In this document: piece by piece, positions 2,970-23,510 of the stretch
How the letters are laid out: every line of letters begins with the position of its first letter
Position numbering within the stretch: the first letter of the stretch is position 1
IMG/VR virus record: IMGVR_UViG_3300044712_002695
Span: 1-24,576 of that record
Direction: 5' to 3' (one strand)
Source: a virus
Length of the DNA stretch: 24,576 nucleotides
Position numbers and translations under genes: made by a program
The notes under the pieces: generated by a model
The model's database searches: none
Seen by the model: only the letters and a program-made list of their open reading frames with translations
Told to the model about the DNA's origin: nothing

Positions 2970-4322
2970 ATGTTCAAAAACTTCCTCGCCCGTCTCCCCT
3001 TCATCTCCCGCACCATCCAGCGCGAAGTCCGCGCCACCCTCGCCTACAAAGCCGAGACCGATTCCACCATCACCCAAGGCCGCCGCCTCGGGCAGTTGGA
3101 ACGCGAGCGCACGCCCTACGACCGCAAGACCATCATCCTCGAAACCCTCAAAGCCTGGCGGGATAACCCCATTGCCCGCCGCCTGGTCGAGATCACCACC
3201 GAATACATCCTCGGTGCCGAAGGCTTCAAGATCGAATGTGAGCACGACCACACCGCCAAATTCATGGATGAATTCTGGCATCACTTCATCAACCAGATGG
3301 ATGAGCAAATCAACGAATGGGCCGATGAGTCCACACGCGCAGGCACGCTCTTTATTCTGTTTTCCACCGATGTCAGCGGCATGCCGCTGGTACGCGCCGT
3401 CTCTGCCGAGAACATCGAGACCATCGTTACCAAAGGCAATGACTACCGCCAGGCCGAGCGCTACGAAACCGCCGAAGTAGACGTCACCTATCCTGCCTTC
3501 GATCGCAATGCCCCCCAGCCTGTCTTTATGGTGCATTTCCCCATCAATCGTCTGGTCGGTTCCGCTTGGGGTGAAAGTGACCTCACGCCCGTTCTGGTTT
3601 GGATCAAACGCTACACCGACTGGCTCGAAAACCGCGCCCGTCTCAATCGCTTCCGCAATGCCTTCCTCTGGATCCTCAAACGCAAATGGACCAGCGAAGC
3701 CGAGAAGCAGCGCAAGCAGAACGAGTTGAACGCCAACCCGCCGCCGCCCGGATCCGTGATGGTCGCCGACCTCGACGAGACCTGGGAAGCGCCCGCGCCC
3801 AAACTCGATTCCTCCGACGCCAATGCCGATGGCCTTGCCCTCAAAAAGATGATCGGCGGTGGCTTCGGAATTCCCATGCACTGGTTGAGCGAACCCGAGT
3901 CCTCCACGCGCACCACCGCCGAAGCTGCGGGTCTGCCAACCTTCAAACGTTTTGAACAGCGTCAACGCTGGTTCAAAAATGTGATCCTTTCCGTGCTCAC
4001 TATCGCCGTGCGCGTGCGCGCCGATTACGACAACCTGATCGACCCCAAAGCCGCCATCAAGATCACCGCGCCCGACATCTCCGAGCGCGACAATGCCGCC
4101 CTTGCCCTTGCCACGTCCAATATCGTTTCCGCCTTCCAACCCTTACTCGATAAAGGCTTGATCAAAGCCGATGAATTCCTGCGCATCGTCTACCGTTTCG
4201 CAGGCGAAACCTGGCCGCCCAAAGCTGGAAACAAAATATCCCAAAAGAGTCAGCCGCCCAAAAAGACGGGCGTCCGTGTAGACGCCTCTTCGGGCGATGT
4301 CACCACCCCAGGAGCAGCTTAA
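2970..4322 (+). CDS. Phage portal protein, 450 aa
   Basis: The portal forms the dodecameric ring at the capsid vertex through which DNA is packaged and where the tail attaches. The length is normal for the family (about 400-550 aa). The basic N-terminus leads into a helical region with DNPIARRLVEITTEYILG (about 67-84), the usual early portal block. The core has an MPLVRAVSAENIETIV stretch. The C-terminal half has a PPPPGSVMVADLDETWE stretch followed by DANADGLALKKMIGGGFGIP and a helix rich in R, F and W, which matches the wing/stem/crown pattern of many portals. It is the first gene of the plus-strand cassette, and the next ORF overlaps its stop by one base. The usual upstream terminase is missing. 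The start is supported by position and a weak AAAGG site. Family membership is by recognition of pattern, without a search. Confidence 0.85.
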   Translation: MFKNFLARLPFISRTIQREVRATLAYKAETDSTITQGRRLGQLERERTPYDRKTIILETLKAWRDNPIARRLVEITTEYILGAEGFKIECEHDHTAKFMDEFWHHFINQMDEQINEWADESTRAGTLFILFSTDVSGMPLVRAVSAENIETIVTKGNDYRQAERYETAEVDVTYPAFDRNAPQPVFMVHFPINRLVGSAWGESDLTPVLVWIKRYTDWLENRARLNRFRNAFLWILKRKWTSEAEKQRKQNELNANPPPPGSVMVADLDETWEAPAPKLDSSDANADGLALKKMIGGGFGIPMHWLSEPESSTRTTAEAAGLPTFKRFEQRQRWFKNVILSVLTIAVRVRADYDNLIDPKAAIKITAPDISERDNAALALATSNIVSAFQPLLDKGLIKADEFLRIVYRFAGETWPPKAGNKISQKSQPPKKTGVRVDASSGDVTTPGAA

Positions 4323-6442
4323 TGCAAAAGTCCTTCCACTTCCAACTCCAAGCCAGGCCATCGGGCGATGACTTCAAGATCATTGCCATTTCCGCAGGCG
4401 AAGCCAAAGGGCACGGCCTATCGTTTACCGACGCCGTACTCAAAGAGTCCTTGCCGCTCTGGGACGGGATCCCTTGCATGTTGGACCATGATTGGATGCC
4501 CTCCGTCACCCGTCTGGCGGGCATCGTCAAAAATCCCACTTGGGACGAGACCGAGCACGGCATTCAAATGACTCTCGTCCCCAACGGCCCCGGCGCACAG
4601 GTGCTCAAAGACCTGCAAGCCGCCGTCAAGTCCGACCACGCCCTCTCCAAAGTCGTCGGGTTTTCGGCAGTCGTCAGCCTGTCCTATAAGGCCAGCGGCG
4701 AAGTGATCAAAGTCAACACAGCCCGCTCCGTGGACTGTGTCATTGACCCAGCGCGCGGTGGGAAGTTTTTAAGCCGAGGCAGCTACATGCTGCCATCGGC
4801 TACCTCGGCGACAAGAGTCGCCGAGGTCAGCCGCCTCCTGCCGCCATCGGTTATATCGGCGCTCCGAAGCGCCGATGTCCGCGCTAATCCAACCCATTCT
4901 CTTGAAAGGAGAAACCAAATGACCAAGAAGACCCCCACCGCCGCGCTCGAAGAGCAAGTGGACGAGACAGAAGAACTCGCCGCCGATGAGATCGATGAGA
5001 CCGAAGACCTCGCCGCCCGCATCGACGAGACCGCCGCACGCCTGCAGGGAGCCCAGGCGCACGTTGAAACCTTGCAGAGCAAGGCGCAAGAAAGCACGCA
5101 AATTCTGGCGAGTATTTGTCGGAACTTGCTCGCCACCTCCCTCAGCACCTCGCGCCTGCCGTCCAGCGTCACCGCGCCCATCAAGAAACGCATGCTGAAA
5201 CTGATCGAGACCGACGAACTGGACCGTTTCTCGGAAGTCCTCGAAACCGAGATCACCGAAGCGCGCTCCATGCTGTCCGAACTGACCGCCTCCGAGACCG
5301 TACAAGGTCCGTCCCGCCTGTCTTCCTTCACCACCGGCGGAGATCAATTTTCCGCCGCCGTCTACGATCTGATGAGCGCCCCCCGCCCCGATCATCTCGT
5401 CAAAGTGAAAGCCACTCGCTTGTCGGGCATCCGCGAGATGTACATCCTGGGCACGGGTGATCGCTACTTCCATGGCGGCTACGATCCCGAAGCCATCCAC
5501 ATGTTTGCCACCACCGCCAGCCTGCCGAACTTGTTGACCGACGCGCTCAACAAGTTGGTGCATGACAACTGGAACAAGTTTGCCGCCAAGGGCTACGGCT
5601 GGTGGAGAAATATTGTCCGCGTCGAACACTCGGACAATATTCAGGATGTCAAAGGCATCCTGCTCGGGCAAACCGATATTCTTCCCACCGTCGCCGAAGG
5701 CGATCCGTATGACGAACTCGAAGTGACCGACAGCAAAGAGAGCGCCGCCTGGGTCAAGAAAGGTGCCTACCTCGGCCTCACGCTCGAGATGTTCCTGAAA
5801 GATGACACCCGCAAACTGCGCGCCTTCCCGCGCATCATCGGCAACTCAGGCATCCGCACCATCTCCGCCTGGATCGCCGGACTCTTCACCGCCAACGCCG
5901 GCGCAGGCCCCGTCATGGCCGATACGGGCAACCTCTTCAACGCCACCGCCATTGCCACACCAGGTGGACACGCCAACCTCTTGACGGCCGCCCTCGATGC
6001 TACCGCCTGGGAAGCGGTTTGCGCGGCCATGTATGGCCAGCCCATGCTCGCACCCACCGGCGCAGACGGCGGGGTTCTCGCTGTCGAGCCTGCTTTCTGT
6101 CTGACGCCTCGCGCCCTCAAAAAGACCGCATGGGATTTGTTCAAGAACGATTGGGTTACCACCGACAACAAACACGCCACCAACCTGTTGAAAGACACAG
6201 CCACCCCGCTGGTGGTGCCCGAATGGACCGACGCCAAAGATTACGCCGCCGTCGCCGATCCCGATATCGCCCCGGCCATCACCGTGACCGAGATCTTCGG
6301 CCTCGAACCTGAACTCTTCATTGCAGGCAGTTCCACCGACCCCGCCATGTTCGAGAACGACGAGTCCCGCATCAAGGCGCGCCACTTGCTCAACGTGCTG
6401 GTCGAAGACTTCCGCCCCCTGCACAAATCCAACGTCACCTAA
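4322..6442 (+). CDS. Fused prohead protease - scaffold - major capsid protein, 706 aa
   Basis: This single ORF covers three head-assembly functions. Residues 1-150 look like an S78-type prohead protease: LDHD (H56) is the likely catalytic histidine, GFSAVV (S115) the likely nucleophile, and SVDCVIDPA (136-144) the typical closing strand. Residues about 205-325 are acidic and coiled-coil-like (many E, D, A and L; DETEELAADEIDETEDLAARID), as expected for an internal scaffold or delta domain. Residues about 340-706 have the composition and layout of a HK97-fold or Mu gpT-like major capsid protein, with an E-loop-like region and a LTLEMFLKDDTRKLRAFPRI stretch that recalls gpT. A strong internal ribosome site (GGAG, 7 nt) precedes an in-frame ATG at 4919, so scaffold-capsid can also be made alone. 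Two hairpins interrupt the linker (4802-4878). The RBS AGGAG lies in the end of the portal gene. The protease cut site between scaffold and shell is not predicted. Confidence 0.75.
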   Translation: MQKSFHFQLQARPSGDDFKIIAISAGEAKGHGLSFTDAVLKESLPLWDGIPCMLDHDWMPSVTRLAGIVKNPTWDETEHGIQMTLVPNGPGAQVLKDLQAAVKSDHALSKVVGFSAVVSLSYKASGEVIKVNTARSVDCVIDPARGGKFLSRGSYMLPSATSATRVAEVSRLLPPSVISALRSADVRANPTHSLERRNQMTKKTPTAALEEQVDETEELAADEIDETEDLAARIDETAARLQGAQAHVETLQSKAQESTQILASICRNLLATSLSTSRLPSSVTAPIKKRMLKLIETDELDRFSEVLETEITEARSMLSELTASETVQGPSRLSSFTTGGDQFSAAVYDLMSAPRPDHLVKVKATRLSGIREMYILGTGDRYFHGGYDPEAIHMFATTASLPNLLTDALNKLVHDNWNKFAAKGYGWWRNIVRVEHSDNIQDVKGILLGQTDILPTVAEGDPYDELEVTDSKESAAWVKKGAYLGLTLEMFLKDDTRKLRAFPRIIGNSGIRTISAWIAGLFTANAGAGPVMADTGNLFNATAIATPGGHANLLTAALDATAWEAVCAAMYGQPMLAPTGADGGVLAVEPAFCLTPRALKKTAWDLFKNDWVTTDNKHATNLLKDTATPLVVPEWTDAKDYAAVADPDIAPAITVTEIFGLEPELFIAGSSTDPAMFENDESRIKARHLLNVLVEDFRPLHKSNVT
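4802..4878 (+). repeat. Two in-frame tandem hairpins with compensatory stem changes
   Basis: Hairpin 1 has an 11-bp perfect stem, ACCTCGGCGAC (4802-4812), loop AAGA and arm 4817-4827. Hairpin 2 has an 11-bp stem, ATATCGGCGCT (4853-4863), loop CCGA and arm 4868-4878, with one G-T pair. The units are 51 bp (17 codons) apart. Stem positions 3, 10 and 11 differ between them, and in each case the partner base changes too. They encode residues about 161-186, the linker between protease and scaffold, and keep the frame open. Confidence 0.8.
4904..4921 (+). promoter_or_regulatory. Internal ribosome binding site and start codon (scaffold-capsid)
   Basis: GAAAGGAG (4904-4911) is followed after 7 nt by ATG at 4919-4921, in frame with the 4322 ORF as codon 200. 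This is the best Shine-Dalgarno/start pair in the cassette, better than that of the portal. It predicts a 507-aa nested product that lacks the protease, in the manner of nested protease/scaffold genes of lambda. Confidence 0.75.
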
Positions 6443-10617: not shown

Positions 10618-10655
10618 TTTCCCCCAAACCACCGCCTCTTTCTGGACCGTCAGCC

Positions 10656-10767
10656 GCCGCGTCCTCCCCAGCCTCTCCCCCCTCCCGATCGGGATTTTTC
10701 CCCAATGACACCACCCCAAACTATCAGTATAATCAGCCCATTCACCGCAAATTAATCTTCCACCGCC
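10656..10767 (+). repeat. 112-bp promoter-bearing repeat, copy 1
   Basis: It matches 12435-12546 at 108 of 112 positions (my hand alignment, no gaps). The block starts GCCGCGTCCTCCCC and ends CTTCCACCGCC. Both copies carry the same promoter and the palindrome CCCGATCGGG. After the last base the two loci diverge completely into different cargo genes, so this is a module boundary. Confidence 0.9.
10705..10733 (+). promoter_or_regulatory. Near-consensus sigma-70 promoter for cargo module 1
   Basis: ATGACA (10705-10710), 17-bp spacer, TATAAT (10728-10733). The -10 is a perfect match and the -35 is 5 of 6. Both hexamers are unchanged in copy 2, while some spacer bases differ. It would drive the genes at 10979 and 11728 with a leader of about 240 nt. 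Confidence 0.75.
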
Positions 10768-11727: not shown

Positions 11728-12231
11728 ATGTCCACACCCAGCACGCCCGAAACTAAAGAAGCAGGGAAAATCCGTATAACTGAGTGGATTGGTGTTTTTA
11801 TCTCAATTGTCAACCTGATTGTTCTAATCTATGTGGCGAATTTAAGTATAGAACAGCAAAAATCCTTAGAGAGTTTCAAGAAACAACTTGCATCTGCGAC
11901 AATTTCAAGTAATTACAATACTGATAATGGAATACTTGAAATAATTAATACTGGAGAGACCGAAGCCATAAATATAGTAGTAACTATCTGGGCAAGAGTC
12001 GATGTTGATTACCGTTTCATGCTCCCTGGGATAGCACAATTCAATCCAACAACAGATCAAATACTTGCCCCTGGCAGATACATAATTTTTGATGTAGAAA
12101 AACTTTCACCCAGCCAAAAGTTAGTTCTTCAATTTGGAAAAAATCAGGAATACACTGAAATACCATCCAAGGAAGAAATATATGCTTCAATTACATGCAC
12201 TAATTGCATGGGAGCAGTAGAAATTCGATAA
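11728..12231 (+). CDS. Hypothetical single-pass membrane protein, 167 aa
   Basis: Unrecognised. A short polar N-terminus is followed by one membrane helix (about 22-42, IGVFISIVNLIVLIYVANLS). A linker with SIEQQKSLESFKKQL follows, then a beta-rich domain (about 60-167) whose pattern (NNGILEIINTGETEAINIVV-like, then VLQFGKN) recalls small Ig-like or CARDB-type folds. A CxxC pair (CTNC) lies near the C-terminus. GGAG about 9 nt before ATG supports the start. It is AT-rich, the second gene of the first cargo module, and ends before the 12368 terminator. Surface exclusion or stress sensing are possible roles, but this is speculation. Confidence 0.65.
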   Translation: MSTPSTPETKEAGKIRITEWIGVFISIVNLIVLIYVANLSIEQQKSLESFKKQLASATISSNYNTDNGILEIINTGETEAINIVVTIWARVDVDYRFMLPGIAQFNPTTDQILAPGRYIIFDVEKLSPSQKLVLQFGKNQEYTEIPSKEEIYASITCTNCMGAVEIR

Positions 12232-12402: not shown

Positions 12403-12434
12403 ATTTCACACACACGCATTCCCCGCGATCCGTC

Positions 12435-12546
12435 GCCGCGTCCTCCCCATCCTCTCCCCCCTCCCGATCGGGATTTTTCCTCAATGACACCACCTCAAAC
12501 TGTCAGTATAATCAGCCCATTCACCGCAAATTAATCTTCCACCGCC
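12435..12546 (+). repeat. 112-bp promoter-bearing repeat, copy 2
   Basis: Second copy of the block at 10656-10767, with four substitutions. It lies 38 bp after the preceding terminator, as copy 1 lies 43 bp after its terminator. So terminator plus promoter block form one compound unit of about 180 bp, repeated at each module boundary. Confidence 0.9.
12484..12512 (+). promoter_or_regulatory. Near-consensus sigma-70 promoter for cargo module 2
   Basis: ATGACA (12484-12489), 17-bp spacer, TATAAT (12507-12512), as in copy 1. The start codon of the driven gene is about 140 nt downstream. Confidence 0.75.
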
Positions 12547-14837: not shown

Positions 14838-15407
14838 GTGTTTGCTTTCGTTCTTCCTGCTCGTGCGCCTGTCTATGTCGGGGGTTCTCGTGAGCTCGTG
14901 CCTTCGTCTCAGGGTGGTCTGCTTTGCCGTTCGGTGGTGCACCGTTTGGCTTTCGCTGGTCATCCGCTTCACGTTGGCTGTGCTGTCGGGGCTGATGCCA
15001 TCGCTATCCAGGCTTGTCTGTTGCATCCCGGTGCCCGTCTGTCTGTCTTTGCCGTGGGTTTGCCCTCTGGCTTTGGCTTCTGGTCTGGCTCTGCATTGCC
15101 TGTCGTTCGCAAGGCTGCTGCAGCTGGTGTGCCTGTGCGTTGGGCCGCTGGGGGTCATCCTGGCCGTGTGCCGTTGGTTCCCCGTCTCATGGCTCGGTCT
15201 GTGGCTGGCTTTCAGGGGTGTGCCTTGTCGCTGTTCTTCTCCCCTGGTCGTGGTTCCTCCGCTGTGGCTGTGCGTTCCCTGCGTGTTGGCATCCCTGTCA
15301 TCCTCTTCTGTGCGTTCCCTCCAGAGCTGTCCTATCGTGGTCAGGTCTGGTTGCCCGTTGCCTCTCAGTTCATGGGTTCGCCGTGTTGGTTCTTTCCCGC
15401 TCATTAG
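14838..15407 (+). CDS. SLOG/DprA-like nucleotide-binding-fold protein, 189 aa
   Basis: The protein shows the SLOG (Rossmann-like, DprA/LOG superfamily) pattern. A first strand leads into GGSREL (about 15-20). GCAVGADAIAI (about 47-57) is the glycine-rich site, a second strand follows (RLSVFAVG), then SPGRGSSAVAVR (about 135-146) and the closing strand GIPVILF. SLOG proteins bind nucleotides or nucleotide-derived ligands, or ssDNA in DprA, and occur in defence and mobile-element contexts. The start is GTG at 14838, because GGAGG precedes it by 5 nt exactly as in the GTG genes at 17007 and 17364. Codon use is unlike the neighbours: GCT, GTT, CGT and TCT dominate and the strand is rich in T and G. 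It has no coupled partner. The ligand is unknown. Confidence 0.7.
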   Translation: MFAFVLPARAPVYVGGSRELVPSSQGGLLCRSVVHRLAFAGHPLHVGCAVGADAIAIQACLLHPGARLSVFAVGLPSGFGFWSGSALPVVRKAAAAGVPVRWAAGGHPGRVPLVPRLMARSVAGFQGCALSLFFSPGRGSSAVAVRSLRVGIPVILFCAFPPELSYRGQVWLPVASQFMGSPCWFFPAH

Positions 15408-15537
15408 CAAGTTATCAGGGGGATTCTTTTTTCGGCGTCTCCAATCTAACAACATCCAACCAATACGCGGTGCGTGACAGTGAGTCTTGCAAAGCAATAT
15501 AAGACCGCCCTTTTGTTATTCCATGCAAGATCCATTC

Positions 15538-15571
15538 CCGCTCGACGGTGCGGAGTACCGCCCGCGAGCGG
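15538..15571. repeat. AGTA-loop hairpin 1
   Basis: CCGCTCG (15538-15544) pairs with CGAGCGG (15565-15571). Inside, GGTGCGG (15547-15553) pairs with CCGCCC (15558-15563), leaving one bulged T, around the loop AGTA (15554-15557). Confidence 0.65.
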
Positions 15572-16399
15572 TGGAAATAATTGTGCAGGCTGGACAACCA
15601 CCAGCCGCGCCGCGTGGCGGCCTTTTGTAGCTCAGCTGACAGAGACGCGGCCAATCGCCCCGAACACACTCAACCTCCACCCTTCGAGGTCGTGGTCGCA
15701 GGCTTAGACGCGTCGCCTAGCTTCGCTGCTCGCAACAATCGCTCGTAAACGCTAGCCAGGCTACCACGCTCCACTTGCAAACCTTCGGGGCTCGGCAAGC
15801 CTTCGCACTCATTCCATCCCGCGCGGTCGCAAGCTCTAACGCATTCCTGTGACGAGTCACGCAGGCCGGCGCGACCGCCAGAGGCTGGCGGTTTCTAAGC
15901 TAAGACCAAAGAGCAGCGGGGAGTTGCCCGCACCCCCGACTGGCTTGCGCCACGGAACGCCCACCGTGAACGGCGCAAGCAAACACGGCGCAGGCCGAGG
16001 ACGGCCTTCCCGCGCCACGAGCAAGAGCAGACGAGATGCGGCTTTCAGCCCATCTCTCGAAGAACGCCCACGGCAACGGGCAACGGCCATCCGCACAACA
16101 CCCGCCGCTCACCCTTCCCCCCTCCCAAACCCAACCCCCCAACCCAGGCCGTCAAAACCGCCATCCTGTCGGTTTTGCGTCCAGCAAGGTTGGTCTCATT
16201 GGGATAGGGGAGCAGGGTGAATGACTCCTGCATTGATCCTGCGCGTGGCGCAGGCGCAGGCGGCGGGATGCGGATTGGCTCGTGCCCGAAGTACACGCCG
16301 TGACTGAACCAAAAAACAGAGCGGACGGTGGCCGCGCCGCCACCTCCAAAACCACAGCGGAACTTGGGGCGTTGCACCGCCCCAAACCCCCTGCTTCGC

Positions 16400-16545
16400 T
16401 CGCCGAGTACGGCGATGCCGAACCACACACCTCTCTTGGGGCGAATTCTACCAGCCACCCAAATTCGCAAGCCGTGAGTACACGGCCTCGCATGAACGGG
16501 GCTAAACGTGCGGGTGAGCCAGGCGGGGCGTGAGTACACGCCGCC
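16400..16545. repeat. AGTA-loop hairpins 2, 3 and 4
   Basis: Hairpin 2: TCGCCG-AGTA-CGGCGA (16400-16415). Hairpin 3: GCCGTG-AGTA-CACGGC (16471-16486). Hairpin 4: GGCGTG-AGTA-CACGCC (16527-16542), extended by GGC/GCC (16522-16524 with 16543-16545) past a GG bulge. The stems differ but the loop is the same. Confidence 0.7.
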
Positions 16546-16902
16546 AAACGCCTGTCTGCCGCATTTGCTCTGACGAAGAAGGCAGGAACACTCCAAGGCA
16601 ATTGCGAAGCCTCTCTATCTGCGAAGCCGAGATTTTAAGCTCGGCTTCGTTCGCCATATCCAAAGTAATAGGGCTTCGCAATTCGCTCTTTCCGTTGCCT
16701 TCTTCTGCAATTCTGGCAGACGACCACCGCCAGAATTCCGCAAATGCCAGGCAACGAACCCGCAGCCCCATGCGGCCACAGCACGGCGGGGCAGAAAATA
16801 CAACGGCGGGAAATGCGCAATCTCGACATTGCACCCAAACACCCGCCTATCCCCGCCGTGGCCTGTGGTTGCGCCTTTGGTTCCCGTCTGGTGTGCCCCT
16901 TA

Positions 16903-16944
16903 CGGCTGCTGGCAGCAGCCGTCAGCAGTTGGAGTACCAACTGC
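16903..16944. repeat. Double hairpin with AGTA-loop hairpin 5
   Basis: CGGCTGC (16903-16909) pairs with GCAGCCG (16915-16921). Directly after it, GCAGTTGG (16925-16932) pairs with CCAACTGC (16937-16944) around AGTA (16933-16936). They lie about 60 bp before the first start codon of the small-gene operon. Confidence 0.7.
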
Positions 16945-17006
16945 GAAGATCAAAACCACTCGGCCACAGGCCGAGACATTCAGAGCCATGCGCTCAGGAG
17001 GCTACC

Positions 17007-18551: not shown

Positions 18552-19214
18552 ATGGCCTACCGCACTGTCACCGTTGTTGAAGAAATGCGGAAGAACGGCG
18601 ATGGCTATTACAAAACCGAATCACGCGTCCCATTCGTCCGCTTGCGCGGGCGCTGGCTTGAAAAACTCGGCTTCACGCCAGGCGCAAAAGCCTACATTTC
18701 CGAAATGCCGAACGGCCTACTCATCTCGTCCCAGCCTCCCGCTGGGACGAGCGTTTCTGACATGAAGCCACTGTCAGAAATCAAAGCCCAATTCAAGGCG
18801 CTTGGCATCGAGACAGAACAGAGATCGAAAAAGCGTGCCAAGCCGGATCCCACGCCCGCCGAACGCGGCGAACCCTTCATTGTCCCCACATGCGGAATCG
18901 CAAACACAGACCCGCTGGACATGGACGATGAAACCTACGCTCAGTGGATTGCCTGCCTACAACCCGAAGGGAAAAAACACTGGCTTTCTCTTCGAGCGCT
19001 CAAACCACCGGAGCCAACGCCCAAAAAGGTTGCTTGGACCAGCAAGAACGCCTCGCAACCAGACCTTTGGGCTTCCATGTTGCCGCAAACAGCCGCGGCA
19101 CAGGCGAATGTCATCCACGAACTACCCGATGACATTCCGCCCGATCAAATCCAATTCTTCAAGCCTCGCGAAATTGGAGCGAAGGCTTACAAGAAAATTT
19201 GCAATGACAACTAG
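18552..19214 (+). CDS. SymE-like (AbrB-fold) domain protein, 220 aa
   Basis: Residues about 25-60 read VPFVRLRGRWLEKLGFTPGA, then a strand and GLLIS. This is the SymE toxin pattern (P-x-x-R-L-x-G-x-W-L-x-x-x-G-F-x-x-G ... G-x-L-x-I), an AbrB-like swapped-hairpin fold. Classical SymE proteins are short toxins controlled by antisense RNA. Here the domain carries a long C-terminal extension (about 70-220, polar and proline-rich, with KKVAWTSKNASQPDLWASML), so the role may differ. Two perfect palindromes lie in frame: 18725-18735 with 18741-18751, and 18754-18762 with 18772-18780. No antisense RNA gene could be identified by eye. The DNA-binding or toxin role is inferred from the family. Confidence 0.65.
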   Translation: MAYRTVTVVEEMRKNGDGYYKTESRVPFVRLRGRWLEKLGFTPGAKAYISEMPNGLLISSQPPAGTSVSDMKPLSEIKAQFKALGIETEQRSKKRAKPDPTPAERGEPFIVPTCGIANTDPLDMDDETYAQWIACLQPEGKKHWLSLRALKPPEPTPKKVAWTSKNASQPDLWASMLPQTAAAQANVIHELPDDIPPDQIQFFKPREIGAKAYKKICNDN

Positions 19215-19225
19215 GAGATTTTCCA

Positions 19226-19651
19226 ATGACCTACAAACCGACCGAAGAACAGAAGAAACGTGCCGAAGAGCGCCGAGCCAAATTCCGCGACCTGTGCAAA
19301 CAGGTCGCTGCTCTTTCAGACGAAGAGCGCGCCGCGCTTGCCCAGCGCATCAACATCACGAACACCGATGGCCACCCGCTGACCGCCCACAATGCGATCT
19401 TGCTTACCTACCAGATGGAGAACGTCACCGTCGTTGGTGGATATCACCAGTGGCGCACCATGGGCAGGCAGGTCAAGAAAGGCGAGAACGGCCTTGCAAT
19501 TTGGGCGCCGAAGATGCCCAAGAAACAGGAGGGCGAGAGCAAACCCGCCGAGCCAACACCAGGTCAAACCGAAGACGAAAAACCGAATTTCTTGATGGTC
19601 ACTGTCTTCGATATTTCACAAACACAGGAGATCGAAAATGTTGACGCGTGA
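19226..19651 (+). CDS. ArdC N-terminal-domain (DUF1738-like) protein, 141 aa
   Basis: The protein matches the N-terminal ssDNA-binding domain of ArdC antirestriction proteins: an N-terminal helix, then AHNAILLTYQ (about 54-63), then GGYHQWRTMGRQVKKGENGL (about 71-90), then IWAPK, and near the end VFDISQT. The conserved W and the RQVKKGE block are the family signature. The C-terminal metallopeptidase-like domain of full ArdC is absent; the protein ends shortly after the VFDISQT motif, so this is a stand-alone ssDNA-binding domain. ArdC proteins protect incoming plasmid DNA. A perfect 9-bp hairpin (19287-19308) lies in frame. It overlaps the DUF3560 gene by 14 bp. Confidence 0.75.
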   Translation: MTYKPTEEQKKRAEERRAKFRDLCKQVAALSDEERAALAQRINITNTDGHPLTAHNAILLTYQMENVTVVGGYHQWRTMGRQVKKGENGLAIWAPKMPKKQEGESKPAEPTPGQTEDEKPNFLMVTVFDISQTQEIENVDA

Positions 19652-20420
19652 AGAATACGAAGCCAGGCGGCAGGCCAGATACGAACGCCTGCTCGCCGCC
19701 GCACAGAACGCCGAGCGGGAGAGTCAATCACTCTCCCGCCAGGCAGACCAGATGGCATCCATCATTCCGTTCGGACAGCCGATCCTCGTCGGTCACTACA
19801 CCGAGCACCGTGACCGCCGATACCGCGAGCGCATCCACAACAAGATGCGCCGCGGCTATGACTTGCACTTGCGAGCCGAGCATTTGCGAGAGCGAGCCCA
19901 GGCTGTCGAGCGAAACAACGCCATCTTTTCCGACGATCCGAACGCCGTCGAAAAAATTGAAGACAAGATCGCACGGCTTGAAGAACAACAAGCCGTGATG
20001 CGAGCGGCCAACAAGTTGGTTCGCAAGGGTGATCGAGATGGCTTGCTTGACATGGGTTTCACCGAGACGCAGGTCACCAAGCTATTCAAACCCGATTTTT
20101 GCGGTCGCCTCGGCTTCCCTGATTACCAACTCACGAACAACAATGCCAACATTCGCCGCTTGAAACAACGCGCCGTGGAAGTGCAGAAACGCCAGGCGCA
20201 GGCAGATGTGATCAAGGAAGTTCGGGGAATCAAGATCGAGATCAGCCCAAGCGAAAACCGAGTTCGCTTGTTCTTCAAGGGCAAACCACCGGAGACCACA
20301 CGCACAAAACTCAAGTCTCGTGGCTTCCGCTGGGCCCCATCACAAGGCTGCTGGTCGGCCTACTACAACAGTTCATCCTTATGGGCTGTACAAGACATTG
20401 AAAAAGGAGAGATCGAATGA
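19638..20420 (+). CDS. DUF3560-like protein, 260 aa
   Basis: A long charged helical region (about 1-140, R, E, A and Q-rich) includes the motif PFGQPILVGHYTEHRDRRYR (about 44-63), which is typical of DUF3560, a family found on plasmids and mobile elements next to ArdC-like genes. Its function is unknown. The C-terminal part (about 200-260) is a second domain (ENRVRLFFKGKPPETTRTKL, SRGFRWAPSQGCWSAYYN) with aromatic residues. AGGAG before ATG 19638 supports the start inside the end of the ArdC-like gene. A 10-bp in-frame palindrome (19715-19739) encodes part of the helix. Its stop overlaps the next start (ATGA). Confidence 0.7.
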   Translation: MLTREEYEARRQARYERLLAAAQNAERESQSLSRQADQMASIIPFGQPILVGHYTEHRDRRYRERIHNKMRRGYDLHLRAEHLRERAQAVERNNAIFSDDPNAVEKIEDKIARLEEQQAVMRAANKLVRKGDRDGLLDMGFTETQVTKLFKPDFCGRLGFPDYQLTNNNANIRRLKQRAVEVQKRQAQADVIKEVRGIKIEISPSENRVRLFFKGKPPETTRTKLKSRGFRWAPSQGCWSAYYNSSSLWAVQDIEKGEIE

Positions 20421-22864: not shown

Positions 22865-23076
22865 ACCTGCTCAATCCTGGTCGAAAACCACAACCAGCCC
22901 TTCGGGTCTTCGGGGGAGTCTGGTCGGCCACCTCATGGGCGGACGTCGGCCCGTCCACTAGGCCGATGCCTCGCCGCACCTGGCTGACGGGAAAATAATA
23001 GTGCCCATCCCCCGACCCCCTTCCCGCCTTCGGGCAGGGGGCGCGCAGGTCAATTCGAAATCCACACAATTGACTC

Positions 23077-23104
23077 TTGACATATTTCCCAACCTGCCTA
23101 TAAT
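23077..23104 (+). promoter_or_regulatory. Consensus sigma-70 promoter of the HTH gene
   Basis: TTGACA (23077-23082), 16-bp spacer, TATAAT (23099-23104): both hexamers perfect. Transcription should start about 7 nt later, at or next to the ATG (23112), which predicts a leaderless mRNA. Confidence 0.8.
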
Positions 23105-23111
23105 TCCCGAA

Positions 23112-23321
23112 ATGTCCAGCGAAGAAATATCCACACGAGAAGCTGCAGCCCTGCTACGTTGCTCAGAGCGCACCATCCGCAACATGATCAAGCGCGGAAG
23201 TCTTTCCGCCAGGAAACTTGATCCATACAGTAAAAGCGTTTATCTCCTCCTTCGCGCGGATGTTGAAAAATTACTTCCCCCCGATAGACAGAAGTCAACT
23301 CGACGAACTCGAAGTAAGTGA
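23112..23321 (+). CDS. HTH (excisionase/MerR-like) DNA-binding protein, 69 aa
   Basis: The protein starts MSSEEISTREAAALLRCSER, then TIRNMIKRGSLSARKL, and later VYLLLRADVEKLL. This is the helix-turn-helix type 17 (excisionase/BldC-like) pattern: S-T-x-E-A-A-x-L-L, recognition helix T-I-R-N-M-I-K-R-G, then a wing. A basic tail (RQKSTRRTRSK) follows. Start ATG 23112 is chosen because the domain begins there and the consensus promoter leaves no room for an upstream leader. Such proteins direct excision or repress lysogenic genes. It stands alone between the operon terminator and the tRNA, at what is probably the edge of the element, consistent with an excisionase. No integrase is near. Confidence 0.75.
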   Translation: MSSEEISTREAAALLRCSERTIRNMIKRGSLSARKLDPYSKSVYLLLRADVEKLLPPDRQKSTRRTRSK

Positions 23322-23380: not shown

Positions 23381-23439
23381 AGCGATGACCCTACCATCGC
23401 CAAAGTGGTACAGCACCTTGACAACCGAATAGGGACTGA

Positions 23440-23510
23440 GCGGGTGATGGGACTCGAACCCACGATATCTTGCTTGGGAAGCAAGCGTTCTACCACTGAA
23501 CTACACCCGC
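23440..23510 (-). tRNA. tRNA-Gly(CCC)
   Basis: On the minus strand it starts GCGGGTG and ends CACCCGC, a 7-bp acceptor stem, 71 nt in all. The D-arm contains AGTTCAGTGGTAGAACG. The anticodon arm is CTTGC-TTCCCAA-GCAAG, giving anticodon CCC (codon GGG). The T-arm is GTGGG-TTCGAGT-CCCAT (last pair G-T). No CCA is encoded. The 3' end faces the mobile region to the left, the usual geometry for integration into tRNA 3' ends. Confidence 0.95.

Follow-up and report, generated by a model that had tools for sequence, protein, structure and literature searches.

A gap of about 1.6 kb without a recognised gene, located in a prophage, was found to carry five hairpins that all close on an AGTA loop and all have a G-C closing pair (5 of 5), and in which every stem sequence is different. 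Arrays of hairpins with the same loop on other stems occur in at least three further viruses, two of which are clearly unrelated to the phage carrying the gap. These AGTA hairpins are judged to be a real, undescribed hairpin family, and a search of the literature for an AGUA tetraloop or an AGTA loop retrieved nothing. From their sequence pattern we infer a function: with a probability of about 0.4, the hairpins are clustered binding sites, read in hairpin form by a putative protein acting in the phage control region, with DNA as the slightly likelier substrate.

The DNA analysed (the window; 24,576 bases, IMG/VR record IMGVR_UViG_3300044712_002695) is an Anaerolineales prophage (Chloroflexota host genome) at a tRNA-Gly gene, an assignment based on the portal, the capsid, an excisionase-like protein and the tRNA-Gly junction (Table 1). 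Homology to the Anaerolineales chromosome ends just beyond the 3' end of the tRNA-Gly gene, which is therefore taken as the junction of the element. The hairpin gap is flanked on one side by a weakly DprA-like gene (14508) and on the other by a series of small genes, among them the SymE-like, ArdC-N and DUF3560 genes. Searches of viral contigs returned zero relatives of the DprA-like gene and of the 93-aa gene (17007) that borders the gap, the latter having zero relatives among 350 Anaerolineales genomes as well. No DNA similarity to the gap was found in plasmids or phages, and 100 genomes of the G002 family gave only short matches, mostly C-rich and without AGTA hairpins; a family search around G003 led to the wrong lineage, apparently from the planctomycete label on that MAG, and was set aside. 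Elsewhere in the window, a RiboL-PSP-HEPN protein (PF18735; 1775-2542, - strand) is encoded upstream of the portal gene and on the opposite strand to it, and is a possible defence or abortive-infection gene. A near-identical direct repeat of ~110 bp (10655-10767 and 12434-12546) flanks accessory genes and carries the palindromic CCCGATCGGG, followed by a T-run.

Table 1. Hairpins and principal features of the window (loop start and stem length refer to the AGTA loop and the perfect stem beside it).
Feature	Position	Strand	Loop start	Stem (bp)	Details
Phage portal protein	2970-4322	+			phrog_10963
Phage capsid protein	4322-6442	+			PF25209
Gap without recognised gene, carrying all five hairpins	15408-17006				~1.6 kb
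Hairpin 1	15538-15571	+	15554	4	gcgg/ccgc on AGTA loop 15554-15557; outer stem ccgctcg/cgagcgg; RNA fold z -3.6
Hairpin 2	16400-16415	+	16406	6	tcgccg-AGTA-cggcga
Hairpin 3	16471-16486	+	16477	6	gccgtg-AGTA-cacggc
Hairpin 4	16527-16542	+	16533	6	ggcgtg-AGTA-cacgcc
Hairpin 5	16925-16944	+	16933	8	gcagttgg-AGTA-ccaactgc; RNA fold z -3.2
SymE-like, ArdC-N and DUF3560 genes	18552-20420	+			3' of hairpin region
Excisionase-like HTH protein	23001-23321	+			adjoining attachment site
tRNA-Gly	23438-23510	-			

The five hairpins, all in one orientation and with perfect stems of 4 to 8 bp, were reproduced at the coordinates of the preliminary description, and its statement that the stems vary with pairing kept around a fixed loop was borne out both in the window and in other phages. 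Between positions 15400 and 17006, 13 perfect hairpins have a 4-nt loop and a stem of at least 4 bp; AGTA is the loop in 5 of these, and in 4 of the 5 with a stem of at least 6 bp. The comparison with randomised sequence proposed in that description was run as 5000 first-order Markov simulations of the gap, none of which reached the observed counts with any loop sequence; the AGTA count lay beyond all 5000, the simulated mean being 0.008 per gap (stem of at least 4 bp). For the whole window, the four AGTA hairpins with stems of at least 6 bp were equalled by no loop in 1000 simulations. GAGTAC occurs six times on the + strand of the window, five times within the gap and there always in a hairpin (5 of 5); a sixth AGTA hairpin of the window, at 11979, has a T-A closing pair and looks like background. 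Outside loci selected by pattern, 2.35 Mb contained six G-closed AGTA hairpins with a stem of at least 5 bp and none with a stem of at least 6 bp. When 5.4 Mb of loci were scanned for 1-kb stretches in which at least three hairpins share a loop of 3-7 nt and differ in their stems, the AGTA arrays were found together with many scattered triples (mostly with three-base loops), which look like chance, and one other compact array, of TAGAGA-loop hairpins in Anaerolineales genome G370.

Scanning of IMG/VR with exact and gapped GAGTAC-containing patterns produced many chance matches and three real arrays, on partial contigs of 4-7 kb (L085, L255 and L408). The loop of the copies matched by these patterns is not independent evidence; the extra copies and the pairing beyond the pattern are. 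In L085, six AGTA hairpins lie within ~150 nt upstream of the small and large terminase genes, with spacing down to 1 base. Its portal is 43% identical to that of the window, compared with 30-35% for the other contigs recruited by the L085 terminase. Hairpin 3 of the window lies in 26 nt that match L085 at 92%, the 16-mer of this hairpin having been the query by which L085 was found. L116, a relative of L085 (terminase 78% identity), has one hairpin in the same place, and the alignment of the two is too diverged for insertion boundaries of the hairpins to be drawn. The six AGTA hairpins of L255 precede its terminase genes by ~600 nt, the longest stem (14 bp) extending well past the search pattern; its terminase is unrelated, and its portal is of another family (phrog_156). 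In L408, seven hairpins are divided between two gaps that separate structural genes, and three of the seven lie on the opposite strand. The array carriers differ in G+C content.

Variant loops were seen as GGGGGG-ATTA-CCCCCC, twice, in L085 (3820-4010) and as gagcg-AATA-cgctc, once, in L408 (1364), and the loop rule may therefore be A-N-T-A. The motif CCTGT-N(3-6)-TGCGTCC was observed in gaps of three phages (window, 16165-16182; L085, reverse complement position 521; L116, 3769), with one chance-like match elsewhere among the loci examined, and is possibly a conserved non-coding element. A further 23 viral-contig loci from a two-GAGTAC scan were judged to be chance, their stems barely extending, and L341, L261, L312 and L316 were rejected as arrays, having near-identical stems within coding-like repeats.

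The arrays are sporadic and follow neither phage family, host group nor ArdC. Relatives of the window portal were found in 106 of 400 Anaerolineales genomes, and 60 of these prophage regions (1.01 Mb) contained five AGTA hairpins with a stem of at least 5 bp, of which two were G-closed, and zero clusters; a related 5-kb contig (L169, 60% portal identity) contained no AGTA hairpin with a stem of at least 5 bp. Conservation among relatives, on which the preliminary description had made its reading depend, was consequently found in part only: these 60 regions lack arrays, but L085, with a portal at 43%, has six hairpins. Its suggestion that the hairpins cluster in front of ArdC-type operons was not supported, the other arrays preceding terminase genes or lying among structural genes. 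Two cluster patterns gave no arrays in samples of 400 genomes each from the Anaerolineales and the Chloroflexota; the window's own host lay outside these samples, and there may be a host-wide AGTA hairpin family in it. Genome matches to a triple GAGTAC or to a GYGAGTACRC pair were rejected because they were repeats, tandem or coding, or had stems of 3 bp.

In the 24 AGTA hairpins of the window, L085, L255 and L408, the AGTA loop and a G-C first pair are invariant (24 of 24). No site has an A at the 5' position of pair 2 (0 of 24) and pair 3 is G in 19 of 24, a bias at pairs 2 and 3 that comes partly from the search patterns; at pairs 4 and beyond all four bases occur, with pairing kept. Since a fixed loop on variable paired stems recurs in phages of different families, the loop is read as the part recognised, and this suggests an undescribed, putative loop-reading protein. 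Such a protein would recognise an AGTA loop with a G-C closing pair, probably together with the G three pairs down, on a stem that would need to be paired and could have any sequence, and adjacent sites would let several copies of it assemble. The hairpin would, slightly more probably than by RNA, be formed by one DNA strand, either extruded by supercoiling or single-stranded in replication or entry, and would act within the phage control region. The preliminary description had named a Rep, relaxase or RNA-binding protein as the possible reader of the loop; the pattern of a recognised loop is supported, but Pfam searches of window genes yielded no such partner. It counts against the proposed protein reading DNA hairpins that close phage relatives lack the arrays, and that all 17 hairpins carried by the window, L085 and L255 are on the coding strand, as expected of an RNA element.

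The main rival is an RNA leader element, in which a protein would bind G(AGUA)C loops in the transcript and thereby govern the downstream operon at the level of termination, translation or decay. The position of the 17 coding-strand hairpins upstream of operons fits such an element, as does exceptional folding as RNA of the L085 array (z -7.3) and the L255 array (z -5.3), but the L085 array is equally exceptional as DNA (z -8.8), so that folding is undecisive. Three of the seven L408 hairpins are on the other strand, and with Rfam 15 covariance models the tRNA was the sole match in the window at gathering score, leaving no Rfam family in the hairpin gap. An RNA-only hairpin is expected to contain more G-T: the full set of 25 GAGTAC sites in these regions gave, at pairs 2-5, 88 Watson-Crick pairs, 1 G-T, 2 A-C and 9 others, a scarcity of G-T that is weak evidence at this number of sites, and the stem first breaks at an A-C in five cases and at a G-T in two. 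The sites thus give no indication of RNA wobble pairing, and together with the use of both strands in L408 this leads to a lean towards DNA, a DNA hairpin being slightly more likely than an RNA hairpin. An RNA leader is on balance considered unlikely, if still worth serious attention.

Mobile hairpins of the REP type, that is, short palindromes spread by a loop-reading Y1 (HUH) transposase and brought into phages from host chromosomes, are an improbable source. Group 3 TnpA-REP is established as a reader of perfect palindromes by their loop, with loop positions critical and cleavage impaired by a stem mismatch (PMC8266576), and the AGTA hairpins are likewise perfect short intergenic palindromes; by analogy, their loop bases may be read and a paired stem required as in group 3 REPs. 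Group 3 TnpA-REP/RAYT REPs are GTAG-tagged palindromes (PMC8266576, PMC3733652), but none of 24 AGTA hairpins has a GTAG tag and only 1 of 24 has a correctly placed CGTC (within 8 nt). In further difference from REPs, which have a high, dispersed chromosomal copy number, the AGTA hairpins are few in copies, phage-borne and found in single regions only. Their stems are unrelated within a genome, and inside one phage too unlike for recent copies; no Y1 transposase was found in Pfam searches of the window and partner proteins (the latter from partial contigs), and the absence of arrays from the sampled Chloroflexota genomes also speaks against this origin.

A family of this other kind was seen in G370 (L533 8000-8150 and the rest of the genome), where dispersed TAGAGA-loop hairpins have varying outer stems and the core GTTAGAGAAC occurs in 111 copies, in both orientations, compared with 4 of the reversed control. 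These look like a GTAG-type REP family, with a CTAC/GTAC/TTAC foot near 43 of the 53 copies read, a tag that the AGTA hairpins do not have. With G370, hairpins that combine a fixed loop with varying outer stems are shown to occur in the host order, and to that extent a REP-like origin gains some weight. Two hairpins similar to the G370 family were seen in L530. In L461, the palindrome GTAGGGGCGTTCGGCCGAACGCCCCTAC is present four times in 20 kb (8423, 13296, 16670 and 19170), three times with different outer arms that also pair, as if it sat inside or extended different hairpins.

An identity as DNA hairpin promoters like those of the N4 virion RNA polymerase is very improbable. N4 promoters are phage DNA hairpins with a fixed loop, a fixed closing pair and one read stem base, and the identity of the non-conserved bases is irrelevant if the hairpin is kept (PMC4496689), which is the pattern of the 24 AGTA sites. 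The N4 loops are 3 nt, however, and the AGTA loops 4 nt (24 of 24); the L085 hairpins, in tight arrays with members 1 nt apart, are too close for separate promoters, and the phage parts searched yielded no gene for a giant RNA polymerase (the left end of the prophage lies outside the record). The AGTA hairpins thus share the split between fixed loop and free stem with both group 3 REPs and N4 promoters and belong to neither. The MS2/R17 coat-protein operator has an ANYA-type loop, a G-C closing pair and a bulged A two pairs below the loop. The AGTA loop, like the ATTA and AATA variants, is of the ANYA type and closed by G-C, a likeness that serves as a lead only, but the AGTA stems are continuous beside the loop, with no bulged adenine, and the carriers are tailed DNA phages. 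Chance or neutral palindromes are scarcely credible: the stems are short and the other arrays came from a pattern search, but a simple chance cluster is already refuted for the window by the simulations (0 of 5000), stems reach 14 bp, and the arrays recur in phages differing in G+C content.

The reading of the hairpins as sites for a loop-reading protein extends, at somewhat less than even odds, to the view that an undescribed class of control sites is common to unrelated tailed phages, namely clustered G-AGTA-C hairpins whose single-stranded form would be read by a putative loop-binding protein, with the stem left free. Sites set by loop and shape, and not by sequence, evade routine searches for repeats and motifs. 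Should unrelated phages share such sites, a protein that reads the loop would await discovery, and with a simple descriptor one could see how far they have spread.
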